From Gammaproteobacteria bacterium (GTDB lineage Bacteria; Pseudomonadota; Gammaproteobacteria; Steroidobacterales; Steroidobacteraceae): DNA of 64,000 nt. The DNA lies in contig JAJFKF010000035.1 of assembly GCA_021773365.1 (NCBI GenBank), forward strand, positions 1 through 64,000, in the 5' to 3' direction. The position numbers were made by a program, and so were the translations under genes. Of this stretch, positions 44,765-63,665 are shown one piece after another; position 1 is the stretch's first letter; each line of letters opens with the position of its first letter. The notes below the pieces were generated by a model. That model ran no database searches and was not told where the DNA came from. It saw only the letters and a list, made by a program, of their open reading frames with translations.

Positions 44765-45361
44765 ATGACGCGCCAAGGCACAATCCCACGGCCCGCGGGC
44801 CTGTCGGCGATTTTTACCTACAGTGATGCACAGGCTGCGGGTATTTCAGATCGTCGGCTCTATTCCTATCGCGATCTCGGTCACGTCGAGTCGATAGGGC
44901 GGGGACTGTATCGCTGGGCCGAAGCTGCCGAGTCAGATCAGAACCTGCTCGAAATTGCACTGCGGGTTCCGCGGGCAACCCTGTGCCTGATCAGCGCCCT
45001 GGCGCACCACGATCTGACCGACGCCATTCCGCCGCGAACGGCTTTCGCCATCCCGCGTGGCAGCCGGGTTCCGAAATTGCAATCGCCGGTCGAAGTCCAT
45101 GTTTTCGCACGCAAGACATTCGATCTGGGGCGCGAAGATCTGCGGATCGGCCACGGTGTTTCGATCGGTTTGTATTCGGCAGAACGAACACTGGTTGACA
45201 TTATTCGGCTGCGTCACCGGGAAGGCGCCGACGTTGCGTGGGAGGCTTTGCGCCGGTGGTTACGCCGCAGAGGCTCGAAGCCCGCCGCCTTGATCAAAAT
45301 GGCAAAACACTTTTACGGCGCCGAACGTGCCGTTCGCAACGCCTTGGAAGTCGTGCTGTGA
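44765..45361 (+). CDS. AbiEi-type antitoxin (type IV toxin-antitoxin)
   Basis: 198 residues. The N-terminal winged-helix part has SAIFTYSDAQAAGISDRRLYSYRDLGHVESIGRGLYRW, the AbiEi_4-type domain. The rest, LCLISALAHHDLTDAIPPRTAFAIPRG and SAERTLVDIIRLRHREG, is the family's conserved core. AbiEi binds the promoter of its own operon and offsets AbiEii. GTGA overlap ties it to the toxin gene. It opens the accessory region just after the dusA-like repeat. Confidence 0.85.
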   Translation: MTRQGTIPRPAGLSAIFTYSDAQAAGISDRRLYSYRDLGHVESIGRGLYRWAEAAESDQNLLEIALRVPRATLCLISALAHHDLTDAIPPRTAFAIPRGSRVPKLQSPVEVHVFARKTFDLGREDLRIGHGVSIGLYSAERTLVDIIRLRHREGADVAWEALRRWLRRRGSKPAALIKMAKHFYGAERAVRNALEVVL

Positions 45362-46248
45362 TCCGCGCTACCCGTGAGACAACGGCCGGTCAGCGGTATC
45401 TCGATCTGCAGCGGGCGGCGCAAAGGAGCGAACGGCCTACTGACGAGCTGATTCAGCTCTACGCGCTGGAATGTTTTCTGGATCGCCTGACGCATTCGCG
45501 ATTTACAAAGCATTTTGTACTGAAGGGCGGGGTTTTGCTGGCGGCGCTGGGAGCGCGCAGGCCCACGCGTGATATCGATCTGGCCGCACGCGCCCTGGAT
45601 AACGACGCGCAAGCCATGCTCGCCGTTGCGAAGGAGATTGCCGCCATAACGGTGGATGACGGTGTTGTGTTCGACGCCGATGGTGCTTCCGCCGAAATCA
45701 TTCGCGAGGACAGGCAATACAGCGCGGTGCGCGTGAAGCTCACCGGAACCCTGTCCCGGGCGCTCATCCGGTTGCATGTCGATATAAACGTAGGCGATCC
45801 TATCTGGCCTGAGCCGCAGGAAGTACGGCTGCCACGATTGCTGGATGGCGTGCTGGCGATCCACGGTTACTCGGTGGAAATGGTGCTGGCGGAGAAAATC
45901 GTCACGGCGATCGAACGGGGCACTGAGAATACCCGCTGGCGTGATTTCGTTGATATCTATACCTTGGCGCACCAGCACGACATCAATGGCGGAATATTGC
46001 GGCAGTCACTTGCGCGAGTCGCAGAATATCGTGGTGCCACGCTTGTATCACTCCAGATCGTGCTTGCCGGCTATGCTGAAATCGCTCAACGACGATGGCT
46101 TGCGTGGGTCAAGAAGCAGCGCATCGAGTCGAATGTTCCAGCGGAGTTCTCGGTTGTGCTCGATTTCATCATTCGATTTTCCGATCCCGTCGTAGCTGAA
46201 GAGCGCACTGCGAAGAATTGGGATTCCACAGTCCGACGATGGGTATGA
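45358..46248 (+). CDS. AbiEii-type nucleotidyltransferase toxin
   Basis: 296 residues from GTG 45358, which overlaps the antitoxin stop. LKGGVLLAALGARRPTRDIDLAARALD is the nucleotidyltransferase core (GG and DID metal ligands), with VMVLAEK-like VEMVLAEKIVTAIERGTENTRWRDFVDIYTL as the AbiEii signature. AbiEii-type toxins transfer nucleotides to RNA and stop growth, giving phage defence or element stability. All core motifs look intact. Confidence 0.87.
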   Translation: MIRATRETTAGQRYLDLQRAAQRSERPTDELIQLYALECFLDRLTHSRFTKHFVLKGGVLLAALGARRPTRDIDLAARALDNDAQAMLAVAKEIAAITVDDGVVFDADGASAEIIREDRQYSAVRVKLTGTLSRALIRLHVDINVGDPIWPEPQEVRLPRLLDGVLAIHGYSVEMVLAEKIVTAIERGTENTRWRDFVDIYTLAHQHDINGGILRQSLARVAEYRGATLVSLQIVLAGYAEIAQRRWLAWVKKQRIESNVPAEFSVVLDFIIRFSDPVVAEERTAKNWDSTVRRWV

Positions 46249-47430: not shown

Positions 47431-47877
47431 GTGAAACTGGCCGAGCCGGTGGAAACCTTCGCCATCGACATCAATGACATCCGCGACGATTCCGCCACCA
47501 TCAACGTGTCGTGGGAGCATGTCCGCGTGCCCGTGAAGCTGCAACTCGACCTCGTCGGCCCGCTGACGGCGCAGATCAGGATGGCAATGGCCGGCGCAGG
47601 CCGCAAGCCCTATACACAGGCTGCCGGCTTCTACCTCGAACACGATATCGACCTGCCGCAGGCGCTGCAGTGGACCGAGACAGCCATCGCCGAGAAGGCC
47701 GCGCCCAACAACCTCCACCGCAAGGCGGAGATCCTGGCGAAGATGGGTCGGAAAGACGAAGCCCTGGCCGCGGCGCGCCAGTCGCTGGAGATGGCCAGAC
47801 AAACACCGGGCGGCATCGGCACGGAATACACCACGCTGAACCAGCAGCTGATTCGGCGTCTGGGCGGGGCGAAGTAG
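47431..47877 (+). pseudogene. 5'-truncated DUF2911 protein fragment
   Basis: 148 residues match the C-terminal half of DUF2911 proteins: PVETFAIDINDIRDDSATINVSWEHVRVPV, then FYLEHDIDLPQALQWTETAIAEK and HRKAEILAKMGRKDEALAAARQS. Full-length members are about 280 residues with a signal peptide; here neither is found upstream, and the frame runs into a T/C-rich stretch without homology. The apparent start is an internal GTG. It is probably a remnant left by rearrangement. Confidence 0.6.
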
Positions 47878-47961: not shown

Positions 47962-48960
47962 CTAGCGGGAGCGGATGAGGAAACCCGTGCCGTCCTTCTT
48001 GATCACCAGCGACTCATCCCGCCCCAGGAACAGCATCAGCGACTGCGGGTCGTCGGCGTTGAAGATGCCGATGAGCTGTTTGTCCCGCGCCCGGCCCTCC
48101 ACGTGGATCTGCCCGAGGTTGTAGCGGTTGAACTCCGCGGCCACCTCGGCCAGCGTGTCATCGCGGAACACCAGCCGGCGCTGGCGCCAGGCTACGGCGC
48201 TGACTACGTCGGCGTCAGGATTGCGTCGCACGGCGTCGATCGTGATGCGGGCTTCTTCGCCGCCGGTCAGCCGCTCGCTGGACCTTCCATTACCCGCCTT
48301 CACGAGCCCCTCGAGCACGGACACCGTGGTCCTGTCGCGCCGGCGCTGAACATTGAACCGGGTGCCCAGTACCTGCACGGTGGCGCTGTCGGTGGCGACC
48401 TGGAACGGACGTGCTGCGTCGGGCTGCACGACGAACAGCGCCTCTCCATCCAGCAGCCGCACCTGACGGGACCGGCCGGAGAAGGTCACCTCCGCGCGGG
48501 ACAGCACGTTCAGGTGCAGCGTGGAGCCGTCGGCGAGCTTGAAAGAGCGCTGCTCGCCGGTGGCGGTGGTGTACGTGCGCGAGGCGCCCAGATAGGGCGC
48601 GGCCTGCCAGGCGAGCGCTAGCACGGCGATGAAGATGGCGATGCCGGCTGCCAGTCGCCAGTGACCGAGGGTGCTGCGCCAGCGCTCGGTGGGCTGGGGC
48701 TGCACGAGCGGGGTGGGCGCCTGCGCGGCGTGGCGGCGAAGCTCTTCCAGATCCAGACCGATGCGCCGCTGCGGGTCCATGCCGTCGAGCCGGCGGTATT
48801 CCTCGGTGACGTACAGGAACTCGCGCACATGGCGGGAGGACTGCTGCAGCCACTGGAAGAACGCTGCGCGCGACTCGTGGCTGTCGTTGTCCTCCAGCTG
48901 CACCAGCCAGTCGGCGGCCTCTTCGGTCAGACGCGTTTCGTTCTGTTGCGCTGTGTTCAT
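47962..48960 (-). CDS. FecR-like transmembrane anti-sigma/regulator, module 2
   Basis: 332 residues. N-terminal AADWLVQLEDNDSHESRAAFFQWLQQSSRHVREFLYV fits the FecR anti-sigma part. A transmembrane segment is at about 104-123. The periplasmic part has FKLADGSTLHLNVLSRAEV, RLLDGEALFVVQPDAARPFQV and VQVLGTRFNVQRRR, ending in an STN-like tail (EVAAEFNRYNLGQIHVE, IGIFNADDPQSLMLFLGR). ATG 48960 overlaps the sigma gene stop (ATGA). It should control the sigma factor encoded just upstream. Confidence 0.86.
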   Translation of the reverse strand: MNTAQQNETRLTEEAADWLVQLEDNDSHESRAAFFQWLQQSSRHVREFLYVTEEYRRLDGMDPQRRIGLDLEELRRHAAQAPTPLVQPQPTERWRSTLGHWRLAAGIAIFIAVLALAWQAAPYLGASRTYTTATGEQRSFKLADGSTLHLNVLSRAEVTFSGRSRQVRLLDGEALFVVQPDAARPFQVATDSATVQVLGTRFNVQRRRDRTTVSVLEGLVKAGNGRSSERLTGGEEARITIDAVRRNPDADVVSAVAWRQRRLVFRDDTLAEVAAEFNRYNLGQIHVEGRARDKQLIGIFNADDPQSLMLFLGRDESLVIKKDGTGFLIRSR

Positions 48961-49487
48961 CGTTCCCGCTCCATGGTGCGGCACATCGCCACGCCGCGGG
49001 CGATGTACTTCTTCACCGTGTGTACCGACACATCCATCGCCTTTGCGATCTCTGGATAGGACAGGCCGTCGCGCTTTCGCAGCACCAGCGCGGCGCGCCA
49101 GGCCTCGGGCAGGCGCGCCAGCACGCGGTCGACCTCCTGTTCCAGGTCGAGCTGGTCCACGAGCTCGTCGGCGGGAAGGGTGTGCGGGCGCTCGGTCAGC
49201 GCATCGACGGTGGAGGAATCGAAGCTGACGCGTTCCTCGCGCACCCTGAGATTGAAGTCGTGCACCACGTTGGAAGCGACGCGGTACAGATATGCCTGCG
49301 GCTGGCGCACCACTTCCTCGGGCGGGAAGCGCAGCAGGCGCAGGTACACTTCCTGCGCCAGGTCATTGGCGGCCTGGGCCTCACGCACATGGCGGCGCAG
49401 GAAACGCCGCAGTTCCGGGCGGTACTGCTCGAAGGCGCCGGCGCTCCGGCCGGGTTTCGATGCGTGTTTTGAGAACGGATGCGGCAC
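48957..49487 (-). CDS. FecI-like ECF sigma factor, module 2
   Basis: 176 residues. Region 2 is ELRRFLRRHVREAQAANDLAQEVYLRLLRF, with AYLYRVASNVVHDFNLR after it. Region 4 is LPEAWRAALVLRKRDGLSYPEIAKAMDVSVHTVKKYIARG. It diverges from the TonB receptor gene across a 149-base gap that holds a 9-base inverted repeat. Layout differs from module 1, in which the three genes are collinear. Confidence 0.86.
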   Translation of the reverse strand: MPHPFSKHASKPGRSAGAFEQYRPELRRFLRRHVREAQAANDLAQEVYLRLLRFPPEEVVRQPQAYLYRVASNVVHDFNLRVREERVSFDSSTVDALTERPHTLPADELVDQLDLEQEVDRVLARLPEAWRAALVLRKRDGLSYPEIAKAMDVSVHTVKKYIARGVAMCRTMERER

Positions 49488-49636: not shown

Positions 49637-52600
49637 ATGAGCCCACTGCAACATGTTATCTGCGCGGCTCTGGTGAGCCTGCTGGCGAATCCGGGAATCG
49701 CATCCGCCGAACAGGCTCCGGAGACGCCCGCGCGCAAGATGGTCTTCAACATCGCCGAACAGCCGCTGGGAGATGCGCTGCGGCGGTTCGGCGAGCAGAC
49801 CGGGCTGCAGGTGGTGCTGTATTCGCAGATCGGAAGGGGGCTGAAGGCGCCCCGGGTGGCGGGGGATCTGACACCGCGGGTGGCGCTCGACCGGCTGCTG
49901 GCGAATACGGGGTTGAAATACGAGTATCTCAATGCGTCCACCGTGGCCATCAGCGACGGGAAGGCGGGGGACTCCTCTTCGACGCGCGCTCCCGCCGATC
50001 AGATGCGGCTCGCAGTCCGGGTGGAAGATGGACCGCAGGCGCAAACCGCCGCCCCGGGACCGAAGGAGAAGGCGGATGTGGTGGTCGAAGGGGAGCGCGA
50101 CCGGCCGGCGCCGTTCAGTACGGCCAACCTGGATCTGACCCGCACCGAGGACGATGCCCTGCCGTTCCAGGTCTTCGAAGCCAGGGACATCGAACTCTCC
50201 GGCGCTTCGGACCTGCAGGAGTTTCTCCAGAATCGGTTGCCGCAGAACTTCTCCGCGGTTTTCGGTGAGTCGGATGATACGGCGGACGTCAAAAGCGACG
50301 CTCGCAGAGGTCAGGTGGATCTGCGCGGCTGGGGCGCCGACGAAACCGTGTTTCTGCTCAACGGCCGGCGCATGCCCGCCCAGTATCAGATAACAGATAG
50401 CCATGGCGTCAATGCCACCCCCGATCTGCGGGGCATCCCCCTGGGTTCGATCGAGCGCATCGAGATTCTCTCCTCCGCCGCCAGCGCCATCTACGGTGCG
50501 GGCGCCACTGGCGGGGTGATCAACATCATCACTCGCCAGGACTTCAAGGGCGGGCAGCTGGCGGTGGATTACCAGACCCCCGCGGACACGCACGCGCCCC
50601 GGCGCAGCGTGAACCTGAGCTACGGCATGGCGCTGCCGTGGGGACTGGGTCTGAGGCTGGGCGGCAGCTACAGCGACAGCGCGCCGCTGACTGCGGGGGA
50701 CCGCGCGGAGGTGTCCATCGCGCGCTGGCGGCAACTGGCCATGGAGAGAGATCCGGCGCGGGTGATCAATCAGGTGTCCGGAGATCCCTTTCGGACCAGC
50801 ACGGAAGTGACCGGCGCTACGCCAAATATCCGGGCCACCTCAACCAGCGGCAATCTCTTTTCCGGTCTTCCCGGAGCGCAGGCCTCCAACTACACCACCG
50901 TGCCGGCGGGCTCCACCGGCGGCAGCGCCCTTTCCGCCTATCAGCCCGGCGTCTATAACCTGGAGCTGGCGGAGGGCGCTGCGGGAATCGCTCTGTTCGC
51001 GAAAGATTCGACCCTGGGAACCGTAGCTTCGAATCGGACATTGAGTCTGGGCATCGACAAGCACCTGGGTGAACGATGGCGCTGGTCATTGGACGCCCGT
51101 TACACCGGGACCGAGAACGAAGGGACTGAGAGCGGGCAACGATCATTCAGTTCTACTGCTTCCCTTATGAGTAGGCCTCCGGTGCCGGCCGCCGCGCCGA
51201 CCAATCCCTTCAACCAGACTGTTCGGGTCAGCCTGGTGGACCCTAACCTGAATCGCGCGGAGCTGCGCGGGCGACAGCGCAGCGAGGGTTGGGTGCTGAG
51301 TTCCACGCTGCGAGGCGCGGTAGGCCGGTGGCGCGGTTTCCTCGATGTCAGCTATGCGGACTACCGGAGTCTGAATTTTTCGCAATCCTTCCTCGAGCCC
51401 GATGGCGGCTGGACCGCGGCCTTCCTGTCGGGTGCCTACAATCCCTTCGTGGATCCGCGTGTGGCCGCACCGGCGGCGCCCGGCTTCTACGAACACTACA
51501 TTGCAAGCCGAGGTTCCAGTGCCAGCGCCACCCGCACTTACCGAGCGGCCATCAAGGCTTCCGGCCCCCTGTTGAGCCTGCCGGCCGGCACGCTGCAACT
51601 GACGGCGGGCGTGGATGCGTCGCGCACGGATCGCTATCTCACCGAGTCTGACCATCAGTATCTGGACAGCCTGACCGGACAGCCCAGCGTTCCGTCAGGC
51701 GGCGCGTCGCCGCCTGCTGAGGACTTTTTGACTGCTCAGAGCGATCCATTCGTTATCGACATGTACGCCGGCTATGCGGAGGCCACCATACCGCTGTTGT
51801 CCGCCGCGCAGGGCGTGCCGCTGATGGAACGTCTGGAGCTGTTCGGTTCGGGTCGACTCGCTCGCAGGGTGACAAGCGGTATAGGGGCTCCGGGCGGTAT
51901 TCTAGGGCCTTCGGGCTTTATCACTGTGCCGCCGCCGGCTGTAAAGGCCAGCACCACCTCTTACCTTTACGCCTTCGGGCTGCGTTACGAGCCGGCGGAA
52001 GGCTTCGCCTTCCGTGCCACACAGAGCATCGGTTTCAAGCCCCCAGAGGTCTCCCAACTCGTCCCGGCGGCCGCTCCGCCGTTCTTACCCTTGACCGGCC
52101 TCAATGATCCGCTGCGGGATGGTTGGAGCGGCGTGCTCACGAATACGATGTACGTCACCGGAGGCAATCCCGGCCTGAAGCCCGAGACCACGGATTCGAC
52201 CAATTTCGGTTTGATTCTCACGCCTCGCCGGGTGCCGGGCCTGAGAGTGTCGGTGGACTACGTGGAAAGCGTGCGCAACGATGCGATCTCTAGTCTGATG
52301 GCGCAGAACGCGATCAACCTGGAGTCGGAGCTGCCCGGGCTCGTCCAGCGTGGAGCGCCGGATGGCCATCCCAGCGGTGTGGGGCCGATCACCTTCCTGG
52401 ACCTGCGTAACATCAATCTGGCCCAGATTGCCTCCAGGAGCGTGGACTTCTCGGTTGAGAAGCGGTGGGAGAACATCCACGGCGGCCGCCTGGTGTTGAG
52501 GGCAGCGGCCAGCCGAAACATCAGCTTCAAGGTACAGCTCACCGATATCGGTCCAGCGGTGGAGCAGGTGCGCAACCCGACCGGCGCCTTCTCCCGGCAG

Positions 52601-52975
52601 ATCGAATGGAACGGCAACGCCCAGGTGCGCTGGGAGGGTCCGCGGTGGAGCGTGGGGTGGAGCACACGTTACCTGGACTACCTCCTGCTGCCGCAGCCGC
52701 CGAACAATCCGACCCAATGGTTCCCGCTGCAGGGCAGCGACCGCGCGCCGCGGGCGCTGAACCACGATCTGAACGTGAGCTACCGCGCGCCGGCGGTGGA
52801 GAACCCGCGCGGCATGCAGGCGCTGCTCTCCGGCACTTCCATCACCTTCGGCGTGAGGAACGTCTTCGACCGCACGCCCCGCTTCTGGGCCCCCAGCACT
52901 GACCGTGGCATTGTTACCTACGACAGCATCACGGGCCGCAGCGTCTGGATGCAGCTGCGGCGGGACTTCAACTGA
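49637..52975 (+). CDS. TonB-dependent outer-membrane receptor with STN signalling domain, module 2
   Basis: 1112 residues: signal peptide to about 25, STN (about 35-110, MVFNIAEQPLGDALRRFGEQTGLQVVLYSQ), linker with PADQMRLAV and VVVEGERDRP (possible TonB box), plug (about 175-300, VDLRGWGADETVFLLNGRRM, YGAGATGGVINIITRQDF), then barrel ending SITGRSVWMQLRRDFN. Architecture and the PADQMR linker match receptor 1, so they are paralogues. FecR/sigma genes diverge from it. Downstream, after two gene fragments, lies a giant exported thioredoxin protein that may work with it. Confidence 0.88.
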   Translation: MSPLQHVICAALVSLLANPGIASAEQAPETPARKMVFNIAEQPLGDALRRFGEQTGLQVVLYSQIGRGLKAPRVAGDLTPRVALDRLLANTGLKYEYLNASTVAISDGKAGDSSSTRAPADQMRLAVRVEDGPQAQTAAPGPKEKADVVVEGERDRPAPFSTANLDLTRTEDDALPFQVFEARDIELSGASDLQEFLQNRLPQNFSAVFGESDDTADVKSDARRGQVDLRGWGADETVFLLNGRRMPAQYQITDSHGVNATPDLRGIPLGSIERIEILSSAASAIYGAGATGGVINIITRQDFKGGQLAVDYQTPADTHAPRRSVNLSYGMALPWGLGLRLGGSYSDSAPLTAGDRAEVSIARWRQLAMERDPARVINQVSGDPFRTSTEVTGATPNIRATSTSGNLFSGLPGAQASNYTTVPAGSTGGSALSAYQPGVYNLELAEGAAGIALFAKDSTLGTVASNRTLSLGIDKHLGERWRWSLDARYTGTENEGTESGQRSFSSTASLMSRPPVPAAAPTNPFNQTVRVSLVDPNLNRAELRGRQRSEGWVLSSTLRGAVGRWRGFLDVSYADYRSLNFSQSFLEPDGGWTAAFLSGAYNPFVDPRVAAPAAPGFYEHYIASRGSSASATRTYRAAIKASGPLLSLPAGTLQLTAGVDASRTDRYLTESDHQYLDSLTGQPSVPSGGASPPAEDFLTAQSDPFVIDMYAGYAEATIPLLSAAQGVPLMERLELFGSGRLARRVTSGIGAPGGILGPSGFITVPPPAVKASTTSYLYAFGLRYEPAEGFAFRATQSIGFKPPEVSQLVPAAAPPFLPLTGLNDPLRDGWSGVLTNTMYVTGGNPGLKPETTDSTNFGLILTPRRVPGLRVSVDYVESVRNDAISSLMAQNAINLESELPGLVQRGAPDGHPSGVGPITFLDLRNINLAQIASRSVDFSVEKRWENIHGGRLVLRAAASRNISFKVQLTDIGPAVEQVRNPTGAFSRQIEWNGNAQVRWEGPRWSVGWSTRYLDYLLLPQPPNNPTQWFPLQGSDRAPRALNHDLNVSYRAPAVENPRGMQALLSGTSITFGVRNVFDRTPRFWAPSTDRGIVTYDSITGRSVWMQLRRDFN

Positions 52976-53073: not shown

Positions 53074-53560
53074 TGATCGCGTAGTGGCCTTGAGCGCCCG
53101 TCGCTACAGCCCGGTCGCTTCTCTTTATCCCCAGGCCTCGCTGCTCGATGGCCAGGGCAACACGGATGAAGCGCTGCGGTTCCAGCAGCTCGCGCCGGGT
53201 TTCTTCGCTGCGCAATGGATGGCCGATCCGTCGACCGAACTGCGCGTCAATGCCCGCTCGCTCGATATCGGTGGTGCGCCGCCGCCGCGCGGTGAGACAC
53301 GCCTGGTGTCGATGGCTGGCGCCGACGTGGCCAATGAATATCAGGTCGACCCGCAGCTGTCGCTGAACCTTCAGGCCCTCGCCACGGCGACGGCGGGCAA
53401 CTCCATCGATCCCACCCAGCCCCAGACCGATGACTTCAATGCAACCCTGCAGGCCGGCATGGGCTCGCTGCGGCTGTACTCCCTGTGGTGGTACGCGCTG
53501 CTGCTGGGCCTTCTGCTCTATCTGACCGAACTGGTCTATCGGCGCTGGCCTCGAACCTAG
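53057..53560 (+). pseudogene. C-terminal fragment of a membrane-anchored protein
   Basis: About 167 residues. It has a soluble part (ARRYSPVASLYPQASLLDGQG, LRFQQLAPGFFAAQW, VNARSLDIGGAPPPRGETRL) and one C-terminal transmembrane helix (SLWWYALLLGLLLYLTELVYRRW). The layout resembles the tail of large VWA/BatA-like membrane proteins. No signal peptide or start region is seen, and it abuts the MgtE-like fragment at about 53070, so it seems to be a truncation product. Family assignment is tentative. Confidence 0.4.
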
Positions 53561-53574
53561 GACCGGATGCACTT

Positions 53575-56500
53575 ATGAACGACATGATTCATTTTCGCGG
53601 CTTTTCCCTGTCGCTGGCTTTGACGCTGACACTGGCGGCCGGCGCGGTCTGCGCGGCGGCACCCCAGGCGCAGCTGGAGTCGCTGGTCGCAACCCGTCAG
53701 ATCGACTTCGCCACCGTCGACCCGCTGTACCGGGAATCGATGATGCGCGATGGCAGCCTGGATGAGGTGCTGGCGCAGCTGCAGGCCATGTCGAAGGAAA
53801 GCGTCCGCTCCAGGCGCGAGCGCAGCAATGCGTTGCTGATCGTCAGCCATCTGCAGTGGCGCTTCGGTTTGCGCCAGGATGCGCAGAACACCATCGAGGA
53901 AGCCCTGAAAATCGAAACCAGCGCGGACCTGGCGCTGCAGCAGGCGCGCCTGCTCGAGGCGGCTGGCGAACTGCAGCAGTCCCAGCGCTGGTATGACCAG
54001 GCCTTCGCCCTCACCAGCGACAAAACGCGCAAGGAGAACATTCGCCTGCGCATGACCTTCGTCGCCGTTGGTCAGCAGAATATCGAAGCGCTGGTGCGCC
54101 TGGCCCAGAGCCGCGACCGCGATTTCCGTAACCGCGCTGCCGTGGCGCTGGCGGTGCTGAGCCACTACGACGAGGCTGCGGGGCTCTACCAGGTATACGG
54201 CGAGGGGAGCGACCGCTTCCGCCAGCACCTGCGCCTGGCGCAATGGGCGCTGGAAGCCGGCGATGCCTCGGGTGCGCAGGAAGAGGCCTGGAAGGCGGTG
54301 CAGGTGGCCACCCTGGATCGCGATCAGCGTTATGCCCTGAGTGTTTTGGTGGATGCGTACGAGAAAGACAACACGCTGGAGAAGCTCCTCCAGCGCTTCG
54401 AACGCAAGGGCAAGCTCAGTGCCGACGAACAGGACATCCGTATCGATCTGCTGCAGAAGCTGGGGCGCTACGATGAGGCCATTCGTTTGTTCAACGAAAG
54501 CGGCCGTACCGACATCACGCCGGCCTCGCGCCGTCAGTTGCTGCGCATGTACAGCGACGCCGGTCAGACCGGACAGATGGTGATCGAATACAAAAAACTC
54601 ATTGCCGCCGAACCGGAACAGGCAGCCTGGTCGGAAGGTCTGGCCCAGCACCTCATGGAACAGTCGGACCGTGCTGGCGCCATGCAGGTCTGGCAGTCCT
54701 TCATCGATCACAACACCCATGCCGGCGCCCTGATGGCCGGCGCGGAGGCCATGGCGCGCTTCGGCTTTGACGAGCTGTCGGTTGCCGCCACTGAGAAGGT
54801 GATTGCGGTGGAGCCTGCGGCCACCAGCGAGGCGCTGTTGTTCCGCTTCGAACTGGCCATGCGCCGCGGCAGGACTGCGGAAGCCGAAGCAGTGCTGGCG
54901 ACGATGAACCGTACCCTGCCACCGGATGCGGTGGATCGGGTGGATCTGGCCGACGCCTACGAGCGCATCAAGAAACCGCAGGAAGCGCTGCAGGTGATGT
55001 CCGCCCTCGACAGCGCCCGCAAGGGTGGGCTGGGTACCGACGAGCGCATGCGCATGGCCTGGCTGTACGACTCCACTGGCCAGCGCGACAAGGCGATCGA
55101 GGTGTGGAAAGGATTGTGGAACGGCCAGGTGCCCGAAGCCTTCCGCCGCCTGGTGGAAGACCGGCTGGTGACGCTGGCTGCCGAGACCGGTTCGCTGGGT
55201 GACCTTGCCGTGGAGCTGGAAACAAAACTGGCTGAAGGCACGGCGACCAAGAAGGACAGTGGGCTGCTGATCCGTATCTATACCGATACCAACGACTCCG
55301 CTTCCGCCATCGAGGTGATCCGCGAATACTTCAAGAGCGCCGGCAGAGATGCCGCCGATGTCGAGAGTCTGCGCGAGCAGGCCAACGTCTATCGCGCGCT
55401 GGGTCGCCCCAAGGCCTACGAGGCGATCACCCGCAAGCTCCTGGTGAGCGATCCGGAGAACAAGGTGGATTACCTGCAATTCCTGGTGCTGAACCAGCTG
55501 GAAAGCGGCGCCGAGGCGACGAAGGAAAGTAACGAACAGCTGATGCAGTGGCTTGGCCAGTTGCGCGGCACCGGCGGGGCGGCCGCGGGCGCTGAGTTCG
55601 AAGCGGGCATCATGGTGCTGGCAGGCTTGGAAGATCGCGCGATCGCCACCTACCGCAACGCGCTGGCCGAAAACCCGGATCACAGCGACAACTACCTGCT
55701 GCTCGCCGACTTGCTGAAGAAACGCGGCAAGGAAGCCGACGCTATCGGTGCGCTGCAGTACCTGATCGAAACCGCCGATCAGGACGATGCCTTCATCGTC
55801 GGCGTCGACGGCATCCTCAACATGAAGCCGCGCGACAAAAGCATCATTGAGTGGGCGCAGCGGCGTGTGCTTGAGCGCCTGACCGCGCGCGACGACAAAC
55901 TGTACCTGTATGAGTTGCTGGGCGAGCTGGCAGAAGGTTCGGGCGATACCAACATGTATTTCTCGGCGCTGGAGAACTCGCTGGCGTACGCCAACAGCCG
56001 CCGCTCCAATGTGCTGCGCGAACTGATCGTCGCCAGCGCGCAAAAGTCGCCCATGAACGCGATGATGGGGATCGGTGCGGCCGGCGCCCCGGATCCGCAG
56101 CGCAATCTGCGTTACAGCCGCCGCCTGGTATCGCTGGGCGAGGAGCTGCCGCCCGAGATCTACACCGACATGGGCAGGGCCTTCCTCAAGATGGGGGATG
56201 CGGAGAATGCCGCGGATGCGTTCAACCGCGCCGTGGACCGCACCGGCGAGGCGAATCTGGTCGAGCAGACCGGCGATCTGTTCATGAACGAGGGGTTCAA
56301 CCGCCAGGCCAGCACCCAGTACCAGAAGGCGCTGATCGCCGATGCGGACAATGCTGCGGTGATGCGCAAGCTCGCCGAGGTGCGGGTGCGTCAGGGCGCC
56401 AGCGACGAGGCGGAGGACCTGTACACGCGCGCACTGATGAATGTATTGCAGGGGCTGACGCAGGAGATCGAGCAAGTGGGGCAGGGCGCCGCGCCCGCCT

Positions 56501-59500
56501 TTGATACCACGGTGACCTACGAGTACCGTGAAAACTATATCTGGCTGCTGTCCGGGTTTCTGTTCACGCTGCCGTCGGATCCGGCACGGTTCGCCATGGT
56601 GGAGCGTGGTTTCGATGATCTGCTGAGCCAGTCGATGAAGAATGTGAGTGGTCTGGCGCCCAAGCCGCTGGCCTACTACCCGCGTCTGAAGGCGTATTCG
56701 ATGTTTGTGCGCGAGGCGGCGCTGCGCAGCGGCCGCACCGAACTGGCGGACGCGATGGACAGCCGTTTGTTGCGCTACTTCGGCAATGACACCGCCCTGG
56801 TGGCCGAGCTGACCCGACAACGCCGGGAGTGGGGCCTGCCGGCCTCTGCCGTGCGCCTGGCGGCGCAGGCACGGGGGTCGGGCCCGGCGGATGTGTCCTC
56901 CGGCGATGATTTATCATTCGAAGCGGTATTGCCGTCGAGAATGGCCGCCACCCAGGCGCTGGGCCGCCAGGACTACGAACTCGCCATTGGCCTGGCGCGT
57001 TACAACAAGGATCAGGCGCTGGTGCTGACGGTCTACCGGGACTGGGCCAAAGCGGCCCTGACCGATACCCGCGTACTGACGCGGGAAATGATGTCGCAGG
57101 GTGAGAGGGCGCTGAACGTGGTATCGGTCCTCGGCGATGCGCGCGGCAAGCTCGATACGGCAGGTTTTGCCAGTCTGTCGCGCTACGTCATCGATCTGGC
57201 CCGCGGTCGTCCCGAGTACCAGCGCAAGCTGCTATATGGCGGCGGAATGCAGCGGCTATTCAAGGGAGGCGGGGATGATTCCTCGCTGCTGCTGGCAATG
57301 GAGAAGGCCGCCGGCCGCACATTCATGAGCGACGAGGAGCTCGGTGACCTGCTCAATGCTCCCGCTGTGCCCTCCCAGCAGGGGGCCATGGGCGGTGGGA
57401 CATTCGATCTGGCGTACGTGCAAAACCGTTTGTCCGGCGCGGACCTGATCGACCTGCTGGAGCGTGCCGTCGGCGCGGACGAGGATGACTACGCGCGCAG
57501 GGGCATGATTGTCCCGCTGACCACCGCGGCGCTTTCCAAGCCCCTGAATGCCCAGCAGTCCGGGCGGCTGCTGGACGTCATCAGGAAAAGCGCTCAGGCG
57601 CAGAAAACCGGACGCGGTTTCGACCCCATGAACTATGTCATGCAACTTCAGCGCGGCGGGTGGTCAGCACAGATCGCGCCGGCAAACATTTCGATTGTCG
57701 AACAGATCGACGACTTTCTGGCGACGACGTATCCGAAGCAGTTCACGGCCGGCGCACTGAAAATCGATAGTTTGATCGCCGAAGGTCGTGAGCGCGAAGC
57801 GCTGCCGCTGATCGTTGAGGTGGCGCTGGGACGCGGAGCAACGGGCGGCAACTCCCGCATCATGGCGATGGGCATGGCGGTGGCGATCATGATGCCGATG
57901 TCGAGTGCCACCAGCGCCAGCGCGAACGCTGATATGAGCGGGCCGGTCACGCAGTATCTGCAGCAGCATGCCGCAACCCTCTTTGGCGAGCACCGCGCTG
58001 AGTTCGTGGCCCTGGTGCAGGCAAAGGAAAAAGAACTGGGGCTGACGCCGGCCACATTCGCCCTGCTGATGGCGGTGGAGGATGCCGATCCGCAAAGTAA
58101 CCCTCAACGACGTCGGCAGTGGCTGGAATCCATGGCTGCTCGTTATCCTGACAAGGAACCGGTGCTGGCTGCCCTCGCACGCGATTACGGCTCGCAGGGG
58201 TACGTGGATCAGCAGATCAAGACCCTTGAACGTCTGACCGCACTGGCGCCGCGCAAGGTCGAGTATCGCAAGGAACTGTTCCAGCTCTGGAAGCAGCTGG
58301 GCAATCCGGTCAATGCCGTGGCCAGCGCCAACGGCAGGATTGCCGACGTGACGCAGACGCCCGATTCAGGGCGCCAGGCAATGCGCTCCGCCATGCGTAA
58401 CCAGTCGGCGCTGCAGCGACCCGTTGTCGCCGGGCCCGTGGAGCAGGTGGTCGCGCTGGAGAACGGAGGCAGCGCGGATGAGGCGCGGCTGGGGCTGCGC
58501 AGCCTGCTGCATCAGCTGCCGCCGGCCGGCGGTGGTTACGACGCCATGCGCATGCAGTACGCGGAGCTGTTCGGACTGGACTGGCAGGTGCCGGAGCCGG
58601 CCAGGGAGGCTGCCGCCGATGAGGACGAGGATGAACTGGATGACTTCTTTATGCCTTCAGGCCGGCGCAGCGCCGTGCCCACCATCGAGGCCCTGAGCCG
58701 GGATGAGAAGACACGCAATCCGTACACCCGCGACGAGAAGTTCCTCGACAAACTGACGGACTATGAATTTTCCATTGCGGAGTTCGAGGCCCAGATCCGT
58801 ACGTTGCGCCCGCAGGACATCGACGACGAGTACCTGATGTATGCCCTGCTCGCCGATGCCTACGACAAACATGGTCGCCTGCAGCAGGTGCTCAGCGGGC
58901 TGACGGCCAAAGTTCAGACGGGTGCCGCCAGTGGCAAGGAGCGGGTACTGTGGCTGGAGTTGCTGTGTCGCGCCTCGCAGGTCGATGCCGCCGCGCAGCT
59001 GCCGCTGGTGGAGAAGACGGTGGGCGCGGTCGGAGGCGTCGATGGCTACGAGCAGCTGCTGCTGGCGCGGCTGTACGCCCATGCAGGCAATCAGACGCGC
59101 GCCGCCGACATTTATGCCGCAACGGTGATGTCCGGCGGCCTTGATATTCGCAGGATGTATGGGGAGTCTGCGCCAACTTTGCTGACCGTTTCCGGCCTGT
59201 ATGTGGATGCTTCCGAACATCTGGGTGCCGCGGCGCTCGACCGGTTCGCTGGCATGTTGCTGCAGATCGTGCAGCCGCCCAATGAGGTGGCGGCGGCAGC
59301 CGGCGTCTACGAACAGTTCGTAGTGTGGATGCTGGAGCAGACTCCACAGTCACCGGTGCTGCAGGCACAGGTCCAGACCCTGATCAACGCAGCGGCAGCC
59401 TCCGGAAAATGGTCCCCGGAGACCTATCTTCAGGCCGCCACCCTGCTGGCCCGGCGCGGTGAACATGAAACCGCGCTGAAGATGCTTGCCCTGAGCCTGC

Positions 59501-60726
59501 GCGAGCCGGTGGCTGCTGCACAGGCCAATCCGGACGATCCGGCCCTCGCCCTGCAGCAACAGCTGGTGCAGTCGTACCAGGCCGCGCTTTCGCGCCAGTC
59601 CGGTGCCGCGTCGATGCTGTCGATGGGAAGGATGGCGCGTGGATCTTCCGGACTGTCGGTGATGAGTTTCAAATCCGTGTTTCCATCCAGTGCTGATGAA
59701 TGGCCGCGGGCACAGGAATGGACGCAGCTGGCGGGCGAGCGGCTGGCAGGCCTGATCGGGCAGGGTGCCGTGGCGCGGGAGATGGCCTTGCAGGTGCTGG
59801 CGCTGGTAACGCTGCGGCAGCATCAGATGGGTGCAAACGATGCGGTGAGCGCGTCCGCGCACCGCCTGGCGGAACTGCTGGCGCCTTATGACTCCGTCAC
59901 CCAGCCAACGGCGACACTCGTGATCGCCGTCCTGGAACACACGCAGGCTCCGATCGATGTCGCCATGCTGCGGGGGTTGATCGAGCAGCGCCGCATCGAC
60001 GTGCGCCTGATCGGACCGGCCCTGCGGCGGGTGGAAAACGCCGATGGAGCTGCGCAGGCGTTCGCGCTGGGCCAACTGGCGGTGGCGTATTCGCAGGAGC
60101 CGAACCTGCTGCAGACCATGAAGAAACTGGCTGACGCCGCGGGCAAGCCGGAACTGGTGCAGGTCTATATCGATCTGGAGAAAAAATCGGCGCAGGCGCG
60201 CGAGGTTCTGGCCAGCGGCAAGGATGTGAAGACCGCTGCTGCGGCAGCCGAAGCGCTGAACACGGGCGAGTCCGGCTCCGGTCCCGCCATCGGCGAAGGC
60301 CTGGAACTGAAATTCACTGCCGTCGACGGCCGCGCGGTGGACCTGGCGCAGCTGAAGGGCAAGGTGGTGCTGGTGGATTTCTGGGCCACCTGGTGCGGAC
60401 CGTGTATTGCCGAACTGCCCAATCTCAAGCGCACCTACGAGACCTGGAATGCCCGTGGGTTTGAGGTCATCGGTATCTCGCTGGACCGCTCCAACGATGA
60501 GGAGAAGCTTAAGGACTTCGTGGCCAAGAACAACATGCCCTGGCCGCAGCACTTCGACGGCAAGTACTGGAAAAACGAGATCGCGGTGAAAAATGGCATC
60601 AACGCCATTCCCGCCGCCTGGCTGTTCGACCAGGAGGGCAAGCTGGTCACCAAGAACGCGCGCGGCAAGACGCTGGAAGAAGAAGTGGCGCGTTTGCTGG
60701 GACAGACCACCGCCTCCACCAAGTAG
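53575..60726 (+). CDS. Giant exported TPR-repeat protein with C-terminal TlpA-like thioredoxin domain
   Basis: 2383 residues. A signal peptide (about 1-33, SLALTLTLAAGAVCAAAPQ) is followed by some 2200 residues of helical TPR-like repeats, for example QASTQYQKALIADADNAAVM and then DEAEDLYTRALMN near residue 910. A Met-rich stretch (RIMAMGMAVAIMMPM, about 1425-1440) and an acidic patch (DEDEDELDDFF, about 1680) interrupt it. The C-terminal domain (about 2240-2383) has LKGKVVLVDFWATWCGPCIAELP with Cys2274/Cys2277 and INAIPAAWLFDQEGKLV (cis-Pro), a TlpA/ResA-like thiol-disulfide fold. It should be periplasmic. ATG 53575 is preferred over upstream in-frame starts because it directly precedes the signal peptide. 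Function unknown; the neighbouring TonB receptor suggests handling of an imported substrate. Confidence 0.85.
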   Translation: MNDMIHFRGFSLSLALTLTLAAGAVCAAAPQAQLESLVATRQIDFATVDPLYRESMMRDGSLDEVLAQLQAMSKESVRSRRERSNALLIVSHLQWRFGLRQDAQNTIEEALKIETSADLALQQARLLEAAGELQQSQRWYDQAFALTSDKTRKENIRLRMTFVAVGQQNIEALVRLAQSRDRDFRNRAAVALAVLSHYDEAAGLYQVYGEGSDRFRQHLRLAQWALEAGDASGAQEEAWKAVQVATLDRDQRYALSVLVDAYEKDNTLEKLLQRFERKGKLSADEQDIRIDLLQKLGRYDEAIRLFNESGRTDITPASRRQLLRMYSDAGQTGQMVIEYKKLIAAEPEQAAWSEGLAQHLMEQSDRAGAMQVWQSFIDHNTHAGALMAGAEAMARFGFDELSVAATEKVIAVEPAATSEALLFRFELAMRRGRTAEAEAVLATMNRTLPPDAVDRVDLADAYERIKKPQEALQVMSALDSARKGGLGTDERMRMAWLYDSTGQRDKAIEVWKGLWNGQVPEAFRRLVEDRLVTLAAETGSLGDLAVELETKLAEGTATKKDSGLLIRIYTDTNDSASAIEVIREYFKSAGRDAADVESLREQANVYRALGRPKAYEAITRKLLVSDPENKVDYLQFLVLNQLESGAEATKESNEQLMQWLGQLRGTGGAAAGAEFEAGIMVLAGLEDRAIATYRNALAENPDHSDNYLLLADLLKKRGKEADAIGALQYLIETADQDDAFIVGVDGILNMKPRDKSIIEWAQRRVLERLTARDDKLYLYELLGELAEGSGDTNMYFSALENSLAYANSRRSNVLRELIVASAQKSPMNAMMGIGAAGAPDPQRNLRYSRRLVSLGEELPPEIYTDMGRAFLKMGDAENAADAFNRAVDRTGEANLVEQTGDLFMNEGFNRQASTQYQKALIADADNAAVMRKLAEVRVRQGASDEAEDLYTRALMNVLQGLTQEIEQVGQGAAPAFDTTVTYEYRENYIWLLSGFLFTLPSDPARFAMVERGFDDLLSQSMKNVSGLAPKPLAYYPRLKAYSMFVREAALRSGRTELADAMDSRLLRYFGNDTALVAELTRQRREWGLPASAVRLAAQARGSGPADVSSGDDLSFEAVLPSRMAATQALGRQDYELAIGLARYNKDQALVLTVYRDWAKAALTDTRVLTREMMSQGERALNVVSVLGDARGKLDTAGFASLSRYVIDLARGRPEYQRKLLYGGGMQRLFKGGGDDSSLLLAMEKAAGRTFMSDEELGDLLNAPAVPSQQGAMGGGTFDLAYVQNRLSGADLIDLLERAVGADEDDYARRGMIVPLTTAALSKPLNAQQSGRLLDVIRKSAQAQKTGRGFDPMNYVMQLQRGGWSAQIAPANISIVEQIDDFLATTYPKQFTAGALKIDSLIAEGREREALPLIVEVALGRGATGGNSRIMAMGMAVAIMMPMSSATSASANADMSGPVTQYLQQHAATLFGEHRAEFVALVQAKEKELGLTPATFALLMAVEDADPQSNPQRRRQWLESMAARYPDKEPVLAALARDYGSQGYVDQQIKTLERLTALAPRKVEYRKELFQLWKQLGNPVNAVASANGRIADVTQTPDSGRQAMRSAMRNQSALQRPVVAGPVEQVVALENGGSADEARLGLRSLLHQLPPAGGGYDAMRMQYAELFGLDWQVPEPAREAAADEDEDELDDFFMPSGRRSAVPTIEALSRDEKTRNPYTRDEKFLDKLTDYEFSIAEFEAQIRTLRPQDIDDEYLMYALLADAYDKHGRLQQVLSGLTAKVQTGAASGKERVLWLELLCRASQVDAAAQLPLVEKTVGAVGGVDGYEQLLLARLYAHAGNQTRAADIYAATVMSGGLDIRRMYGESAPTLLTVSGLYVDASEHLGAAALDRFAGMLLQIVQPPNEVAAAAGVYEQFVVWMLEQTPQSPVLQAQVQTLINAAAASGKWSPETYLQAATLLARRGEHETALKMLALSLREPVAAAQANPDDPALALQQQLVQSYQAALSRQSGAASMLSMGRMARGSSGLSVMSFKSVFPSSADEWPRAQEWTQLAGERLAGLIGQGAVAREMALQVLALVTLRQHQMGANDAVSASAHRLAELLAPYDSVTQPTATLVIAVLEHTQAPIDVAMLRGLIEQRRIDVRLIGPALRRVENADGAAQAFALGQLAVAYSQEPNLLQTMKKLADAAGKPELVQVYIDLEKKSAQAREVLASGKDVKTAAAAAEALNTGESGSGPAIGEGLELKFTAVDGRAVDLAQLKGKVVLVDFWATWCGPCIAELPNLKRTYETWNARGFEVIGISLDRSNDEEKLKDFVAKNNMPWPQHFDGKYWKNEIAVKNGINAIPAAWLFDQEGKLVTKNARGKTLEEEVARLLGQTTASTK

Positions 60727-62107: not shown

Positions 62108-63127
62108 CTATTCGGTCCGGGCGTGAATCACCACGGTATTGCCCGTGCGCTCGAACCGCAGGTCCTGGCGTTGCTCGAGGAACTTCAGCAACTGCTCCGG
62201 CATATCCGCATCGAATACTCCGTTGAGGCGCCGCTCCCCGATCTGCGAGTCCGCGATCCGGATCCGGGTGGTGCTGTAACGATTGAACTCCCTCGCCACC
62301 TCAAACAAGGTGGCGCGTCGGAAGTCGAGCTGCCGCTGCCGCCATGCGGTGGCCTGGGCGATTTCAGCGGTCTCATTCTTAACGACGCTTCGATCTTTGA
62401 GTAACTGCGCAGTCTCTCCCTGGACCAGAGGCACCGGGATTGCATCTGTTGCGACCTGAACCTTGCCTTCCACCACCGACACGGTGGTGCGCGCATCCTG
62501 TCGATAGACATTGAACTGCGTGCCGAGGGCCTGCACCGTGGCATCGCCCACCAGCACACGGAAGGGCCTGTCCGGATCACGCGCCACGACAAAGAACGCC
62601 TCGCCCTCCAGAAGATCGATATCGCGCCCTTCATCTGAATAATGAACCTTCACCTGCGAACGGGTATTGAGATGGATAACCGAACCGTCTGTCAGCTTGA
62701 CCGAGCGTTGCTCGCCGATCTGTGTGCGATAGTCGGAGTTGCCCGAGATCAGCGTAAACGACGCATAGCCGACAAGCCCGACCGCCAGGCTCGCGGCCAT
62801 TGCCCACCCCAGCCGGCGCCGGGGTGCCGGCGAGCGCGAAGTGTGCATTTGCGGGCGAGGCTCGAGCGGCAGGATGTTTGCAACGGCGGCTGCGGCTGAT
62901 GATTTCCGGCAATCCTCGATCAGCGCCTCGATATCGACGGCCTCCGGCAGATCGATCTCGTTCAGCTGGCGGTCGAGCACCGTCACTTCAAGGAACGCCT
63001 GCACATGGTCGCGAGACTGTTCGCACCATTCGAGAAACGCCTTGCGGCATTGCGTGCTTTCGTCCTCTTCCAGCCGCAACAGCCATTGCAGCGCCTGTTC
63101 CTGTATTTTTGTCGGTACCGTCTCCAT
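62108..63127 (-). CDS. FecR-like transmembrane anti-sigma/regulator, module 3
   Basis: 339 residues. N-terminal ALQWLLRLEEDESTQCRKAFLEWCEQSRDHVQAFLEV is the anti-sigma part. A transmembrane segment is at about 109-128 (LGWAMAASLAVGLVGYASF). The periplasmic part has VKLTDGSVIHLNTRSQVKV, DLLEGEAFFVVARDPDRPFRV and VQALGTQFNVYRQD, with an STN-like tail (VAREFNRYSTTRIRIAD, NGVFDADMPEQLLKFLEQR). ATG 63127 is one base after the sigma stop. It is closest in layout to module 2. Confidence 0.88.
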   Translation of the reverse strand: METVPTKIQEQALQWLLRLEEDESTQCRKAFLEWCEQSRDHVQAFLEVTVLDRQLNEIDLPEAVDIEALIEDCRKSSAAAAVANILPLEPRPQMHTSRSPAPRRRLGWAMAASLAVGLVGYASFTLISGNSDYRTQIGEQRSVKLTDGSVIHLNTRSQVKVHYSDEGRDIDLLEGEAFFVVARDPDRPFRVLVGDATVQALGTQFNVYRQDARTTVSVVEGKVQVATDAIPVPLVQGETAQLLKDRSVVKNETAEIAQATAWRQRQLDFRRATLFEVAREFNRYSTTRIRIADSQIGERRLNGVFDADMPEQLLKFLEQRQDLRFERTGNTVVIHARTE

Positions 63128-63128
63128 C

Positions 63129-63665
63129 TCAGGGCTCCCTGAACTGCGACTTGAAGTGCGCCATGGCGCGGATGAGATATCGCTGCACGGTTTTCTTCGT
63201 GAGGCCGAGCTCGCGCGCAATCTCATCGGGCGTCAACCCATAGCGCTTGCGCAGCAACAGACAGGCCTGGTAGTTCTTCGGCAGGCCTTGCAGCAGCCGT
63301 TGCGTCTCGCGCGCGAAATGCATGCGGTGGGCGAGGTCGCCCTGGCTTTCGTCGGGAGTGCGGGCGCTGGCGTCATCCAGCAGTTCGGAATTGTAGACCA
63401 CGGGGTTTTTGCGGTCCCGCAGCCGCAACTCATGCGCGATGTTGCGCGCAATCCGGTACATGAATCCCTGTGGATTCTGAATGACCTCATCGCGCGGCAA
63501 CTGCAGGAGACGCAGATAGACGCTCTGCGCCAGGTCGCGGGCGTCTTCCGCGCTCGCCGCCCGGCGGCCGAGGAAACGCTCCAGCTCCGGGCCGTATTCC
63601 TCATAGACCCTGCGAGCGAGATCAGCCGGCGAGCGTTGTTCCAATGTATTCAATGAGTTAAGCAC
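63129..63665 (-). CDS. FecI-like ECF sigma factor, module 3
   Basis: 178 residues. Region 2 is ELERFLGRRAASAEDARDLAQSVYLRLLQL, with GFMYRIARNIAHELRLRDR after it. Region 4 is LPKNYQACLLLRKRYGLTPDEIARELGLTKKTVQRYLIRAMAHF. It diverges from a TonB receptor gene at the window edge. The intergenic gap holds a 9-base inverted repeat. Confidence 0.88.
   Translation of the reverse strand: MLNSLNTLEQRSPADLARRVYEEYGPELERFLGRRAASAEDARDLAQSVYLRLLQLPRDEVIQNPQGFMYRIARNIAHELRLRDRKNPVVYNSELLDDASARTPDESQGDLAHRMHFARETQRLLQGLPKNYQACLLLRKRYGLTPDEIARELGLTKKTVQRYLIRAMAHFKSQFREP

Follow-up and report, generated by a model that had tools for sequence, protein, structure and literature searches.

Introduction

Proteins of the ResA/TlpA/DsbE type, exported oxidoreductases of one fold family with a CxxC motif and a catalytic glutamate, are classical reductants of partner proteins. 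In FecI-FecR-FecA signalling, an STN receptor, a FecR regulator and an ECF sigma factor are encoded next to each other. Bat modules comprise a MoxR AAA+ protein, a DUF58 protein, a BatA-N VWA protein, a second VWA membrane protein and a TPR partner, and VWA and TPR parts may be fused, as is known for batB-batC (PMC3557215). Bat proteins were once proposed to reduce periplasmic proteins or to export reducing power, and Leptospira biflexa with all bat genes deleted showed no oxidative phenotype (PMC3557215). More generally, MoxR-VWA pairs are remodelling or cofactor-insertion machines (PMC9976466).

Here we describe a protein of 2383 residues (the giant) that is encoded in the window, i.e. the whole stretch of 64,000 nucleotides under analysis, and that resembles and departs from each of these systems. 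In contrast to Bat modules, the TPR subunit measures about 2200 residues and is fused to TlpA, copies are located behind TonB receptors, the VWA protein contains GATase1_like, and no profile match to BatD was obtained among six genes of the related operon on contig C107. Unlike known TlpA/ResA/DsbE oxidoreductases, the thioredoxin domain forms the C-terminal tail of a giant solenoid and scores below the NCBIfam cut-offs. Receptor-linked TlpA proteins of about 390 aa, which occur in this genome and in Verrucomicrobiota (e.g., Opitutus), share a helical-looking N-terminus, a related TlpA domain and the position behind a receptor, but their N-terminal part is short and without sequence homology to the solenoid of the giant as far as seen. 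Finally, where FecI-FecR-FecA systems continue with a transporter, the gene after the receptor encodes a putative scaffold-reductase.

Results and discussion

Architecture of the giant protein

The initial annotation had read a signal peptide, helical repeats and a C-terminal WCGPC TlpA-like domain in one chain, and the open reading frame, Pfam and AlphaFold2 agreed with this assignment (Table 1). A GTG at position 53485 represents an alternative start, with which the protein would be 30 residues longer; the window giant has its ATG and signal peptide in common with the paralogue on contig C57. A lipoprotein was considered as well and rejected, as Cys 26 is located outside any lipobox and corresponds to Ser in the C57 copy. 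Pfam revealed TPR families, strongest at residues 680–954, and AhpC-TSA, Redoxin and Thioredoxin_8 matches at residues 2246–2365. The AlphaFold2 model of residues 28–1100 showed about 60 consecutive helices and zero strands (mean pLDDT 84.5), while the C-terminal half, modelled from an alignment of four sequences only, was helical with a mean pLDDT of 62.7. Of the approximately 2200 residues of predicted helical repeats, the first half can thus be regarded as firm and the second half as likely. The best sequence relatives of the solenoid in the PDB were consensus TPR and PPR designs, and the structural neighbours of model 28–1100 were large TPR scaffolds (Ski3, Ctr9, IFT-A subunits, OGT) with low global TM-scores.

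The mature solenoid contains one Cys outside the CxxC. A Met-rich patch near residue 1430 and an acidic patch near residue 1682 are indeed present, but the metal binding once suggested for them had to be dismissed, since the patches are not conserved in the paralogues and are predicted to be loose loops (pLDDT about 20–46). The presence of three paralogues in the genome and of one full-length homologue in another phylum indicates that the observation is not due to chance. In line with the expectation that no such protein had been described, the searched libraries and papers contained no description of a full-length protein of this build.

Table 1 Features of the giant and its neighbourhood (positions in the window)
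Feature	Position	Strand	Basis or remark
FecR-type anti-sigma regulator with DUF4880	47962..48984	-	FecR 3.7e-24
ECF sigma factor (FecI-like), divergent from receptor	48957..49487	-	Sigma70_r2 and Sigma70_r4_2 above Pfam cut-off
TonB-dependent receptor, STN + plug + barrel	49637..52975	+	barrel 6.6e-21, plug 2.6e-14, STN 1.6e-5
VWA/GATase gene remnant, last ~160 residues with C-terminal transmembrane helix	53057..53560	+	alignment to end of C107:7748-10312, six-frame reading
Giant exported TPR protein with C-terminal TlpA domain, 2383 aa	53575..60726	+	open ORF, ATG start
Signal peptide, residues ~1-28	53575..53658	+	type I by eye
TPR-like alpha-solenoid, residues ~29-2210	53659..60204	+	Pfam, PDB sequence search, AlphaFold2
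Low-confidence linker before TlpA domain, residues ~2211-2243	60205..60303	+	pLDDT <50 (model residues 1022-1054)
TlpA/ResA-type thioredoxin domain, WCGPC 2273-2277 (Cys 2274, Cys 2277)	60304..60723	+

Genomic neighbourhood

The TonB receptor with its own sigma/FecR system, noted initially upstream of the giant, was corroborated by Pfam matches, although the STN match (25.0 bits) remained under the Pfam cut-off of 28.4. Sigma factor, FecR and STN receptor are all adjacent, as in the FecI-FecR arrangement. Between receptor and giant lies a stretch of 600 nt, and because of this distance co-transcription of the two genes can only be assumed; that no terminator-like site was found there is weak evidence. 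The same stretch contains the end of a VWA/GATase gene, which matched the VWA/GATase protein of contig C107 (phmmer, 2e-59). The reading frame of this remnant is still open and ends 14 nt upstream of the ATG of the giant.

Further genes of this region were recorded. A second divergent FecR/sigma pair (62108–63665) and a receptor (63671 onwards) follow immediately downstream of the locus, with no adjoining TlpA gene. A third receptor (C86:70871–74170, i.e. L057:6871–10170), closely related to the window receptor, has no giant of its own; it is situated downstream of the window giant at a distance of about 10 kb. Upstream, the window harbours an AbiEii toxin gene preceded by a partner gene, which together form a type IV toxin-antitoxin pair (44765–46248); the partner gene has a relative at L057:3310–3906. 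The window also contains a probably truncated gene (47431–47877) that matches the end of DUF2911 only and has a TPR-like tail.

Paralogues in the same genome

The genome (3.97 Mb, 157 contigs, completeness 98.95, contamination 0.74) encodes three giants. Besides the window giant, these are a copy split exactly at residue 1395/1396 between contigs C57 and C64, whose pieces were taken to be one gene, and a copy on contig C107. The identity to the window giant amounts to 78% for the C57 piece, 69% for the C64 piece and 59 and 50% for the C107 protein; 55–60% was obtained for the TPR subunit of the latter. C57 exhibits the same gene order as the window (receptor, frame-broken VWA remnant, giant), and the giant is thereby found right behind a TonB receptor in two of three copies. 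When the window receptor was compared with that of C57 (C57:4697–8023), plug and barrel turned out to be 58–96% identical, whereas the N-terminal STN region reached 34–45%, FecR 21–40% (in blocks of 50 residues) and the sigma factor only 24–30%. The similarity of the barrels and the unlikeness of STN, FecR and sigma factor indicate that the signalling front end was swapped and that the receptor barrel remained linked to the giant.

The third paralogue (C107:10336–17556), which also carries TlpA, is the last gene of a MoxR-VWA operon with the order 559-aa protein, DUF4175-like, MoxR, DUF58, BatA-N/VWA, VWA/GATase1_like, giant. Pfam supported MoxR (AAA_3, 7.8e-63) and DUF58 (1.6e-33); the DUF4175-like protein was named by eye and had no Pfam match. 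The tail of another receptor is located at the start of the contig. The 559-aa protein (C107:758–2437, L010) seemingly adopts a degenerate retropepsin-like fold; it gave no NCBIfam match and a sub-threshold TPR match in Pfam.

The TlpA tail and its family

Sequence searches of the PDB placed the tail closest to ResA and similar thiol-disulfide oxidoreductases, including TlpA, and an alignment with 4nmu showed that the ResA-type Glu of CxxCxxE is present. NCBIfam scores stayed below the cut-offs for ResA (77.9 vs 170 bits), TlpA (68.2 vs 230) and DsbE. The closest TlpA domain outside the giants, 66% identical, is encoded by a gene behind a receptor. Furthermore, a domain tree united the three giants in one clade (100/99) inside a receptor-linked TlpA group (95/96). 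As judged from sequence, the tail is therefore a member of the TonB-receptor-linked TlpA family. Within the tree, which is based on a short domain, sequences from this genome and from Verrucomicrobiota interleave, and well supported branches require at least six label changes, a pattern that points to repeated exchange between lineages or to old shared duplicates.

The family is abundant in the host genome, where we counted 78 TlpA-domain matches; TonB plugs and FecR domains each numbered at least 150. TlpA candidates amounted to 97, compared with 4–19 in genomes from other genera of the family, and FecR candidates 175, compared with 0–17 in twelve relatives from family and order. Sigma-FecR-receptor units have undergone an exceptional expansion in this 4-Mb genome. 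A same-strand plug was found upstream within 5.5 kb for 49 of the 78 TlpA matches (about 8 expected by position alone). At the gene level, 34 of 44 TlpA genes in 40 loci of this genome, those cut by a contig edge excluded, follow a receptor directly or via other TlpA genes, with gaps between receptor and TlpA gene that are mostly below 40 nt or replaced by overlaps. In some loci (L011, L018, L026, L049, L050, L063), a single chain carries TlpA domains in tandem, or as many as four consecutive TlpA genes lie behind one receptor. A search profile built from the receptor-linked TlpA proteins of about 390 aa matched strongly in 24 of 195 Verrucomicrobiota genomes; among 298 other genomes sampled from the host's own phylum, not one gave a strong match. 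In several of the Verrucomicrobiota genomes the TlpA gene comes right after the receptor, some with FecR and sigma factor upstream.

Relatives elsewhere and origin of the solenoid

Apart from the host itself, none of 60 family and 369 class genomes contained a full-length giant, and IMG/VR contigs yielded no viral relatives. A full-length relative with 38–39% identity, lacking the TlpA tail, was detected in the Opitutus sp. MAG Baikal-deep-G227 (L036), where genes related to DUF4175-like and DUF58 lie upstream of it. Two further Verrucomicrobiota genomes (G632 and G732; sample 388) encode VWA, GATase and TPR parts in a single chain of 2299–2341 aa, preceded in G732 by MoxR and DUF58 relatives. 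The visible neighbours of these three relatives are MoxR-DUF58-VWA genes; no TonB receptor was seen beside them, two of the three loci being cut by contig ends. The proposed link to TonB receptors thus holds for the TlpA domains, very strongly in this genome and again in Verrucomicrobiota, but for the giant itself it found no support in other genomes.

Given the C107 operon, the Opitutus locus, the chains of G632 and G732 and the VWA remnant in the window, the ancestral context of the solenoid was most likely a Bat-type MoxR-VWA module. The solenoid did not start out as the partner of a receptor, and the nearest relatives of the giant belong to a membrane repair-or-assembly machine. In the giant itself, two recognisable components, namely a Bat-like TPR subunit and a receptor-linked TlpA protein, are newly joined, and this fusion seems to be confined to one lineage among the samples searched.

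Proposed function and alternative explanations

We cautiously favour a model in which the fusion of a Bat-like TPR subunit with a receptor-linked thiol reductase serves as a periplasmic scaffold and tethered reductase for clients of inducible import. According to this model, the giant would derive from the periplasmic TPR subunit of a MoxR-DUF58-BatA-VWA/GATase membrane module. Its TlpA thiol-reductase domain would have been gained by gene fusion, with a member of the genome's own receptor-linked TlpA family as donor; afterwards, one copy would have ended up behind a TonB receptor and brought along a 3′ piece of the VWA gene. Expression of this receptor presumably depends on a transducing STN-FecR-sigma switch, so that ligand import via the receptor would release the sigma factor and receptor and giant would be made together. 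The solenoid may hold a periplasmic client that is connected with the ligand taken up, either the imported substrate or a partner protein, and disulfides of this client would be reduced by the tethered WCGPC domain. The giant may also contact VWA membrane proteins. Since neither the window nor C57 has MoxR, DUF58 or an intact VWA gene next to the giant, such contact with the module would need other loci. The earlier idea that Bat proteins supply reducing power fits the fusion but, in view of the Leptospira biflexa deletion, can serve as a lead only. Of the earlier interpretation, the exported helical scaffold with a TlpA-type domain persists in this model, while metal binding and a conserved giant-receptor link do not.

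If the giant now cooperated with nothing but its TonB receptor and offered the imported ligand a periplasmic docking scaffold, the MoxR-VWA ancestry would be mere history. The two paralogues that directly follow closely related receptors without MoxR/VWA genes are in agreement with this idea, as is the retention of barrel and giant during the exchange of STN, FecR and sigma factor. We nevertheless consider it unlikely, if still a serious competitor, given that the window still has an open reading frame for the VWA remnant and that the C107 paralogue retains both the complete module and TlpA, which implies that the fusion originated, or is maintained, in the context of the module. A housekeeping role, in which the TlpA domain reduces the receptor or components of the MoxR-VWA machine independently of any imported substrate, would match the classical activity of ResA/TlpA/DsbE proteins and the single additional Cys of the mature solenoid. 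This role appears quite improbable, as TlpA genes occur behind receptors of many different kinds, in some cases as runs of two to four genes behind a single receptor, suggesting ligand-specific rather than housekeeping use. More far-reaching is the conjecture that Bat-type MoxR-VWA modules are periplasmic thiol-reduction machines and that in this lineage the TPR-reductase fusion, with copies under ligand-induced TonB control, opens imported disulfide substrates on the scaffold. We rate it as rather unlikely.

Two trivial explanations carry little weight. It is very improbable that the giant is a decaying duplicate without function. The adjoining VWA remnant is a gene fragment, as would suit decay, but the 2383 codons of the giant are free of stops, and dN/dS values of 0.20 (window vs C57, residues 1–1395) and 0.28 (vs C64) demonstrate purifying selection and hence a retained function. 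Even less credible is an assembly artefact or contamination that brought the locus in from an Opitutales member of the bin. The closest full-length and the closest TlpA relatives outside the genome do come from Verrucomicrobiota; however, the tetranucleotide profile of giant and receptor correlated with the Lon/ClpX/ClpB loci of the host at r = 0.978 and with the Opitutus contig at 0.852, clpX, lon, clpB and gltX are found on the same contigs as receptor-TlpA loci, and the completeness and contamination values of the genome argue against a foreign origin.

Conclusions

A literature search for links between TonB and TlpA or between MoxR and TonB retrieved no description. The sigma-FecR-receptor-TlpA cassette, of which this one small genome holds dozens of copies and which also occurs in another phylum, links TonB import with disulfide reduction, a connection of which we found no description in the literature searched. 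For Bat-type MoxR/VWA/TPR modules, to which the supply of reducing power to the periplasm has been ascribed as one proposed role (PMC3557215), the giant represents a natural fusion of a TPR protein with a thiol reductase that ties the TPR subunit to reduction.
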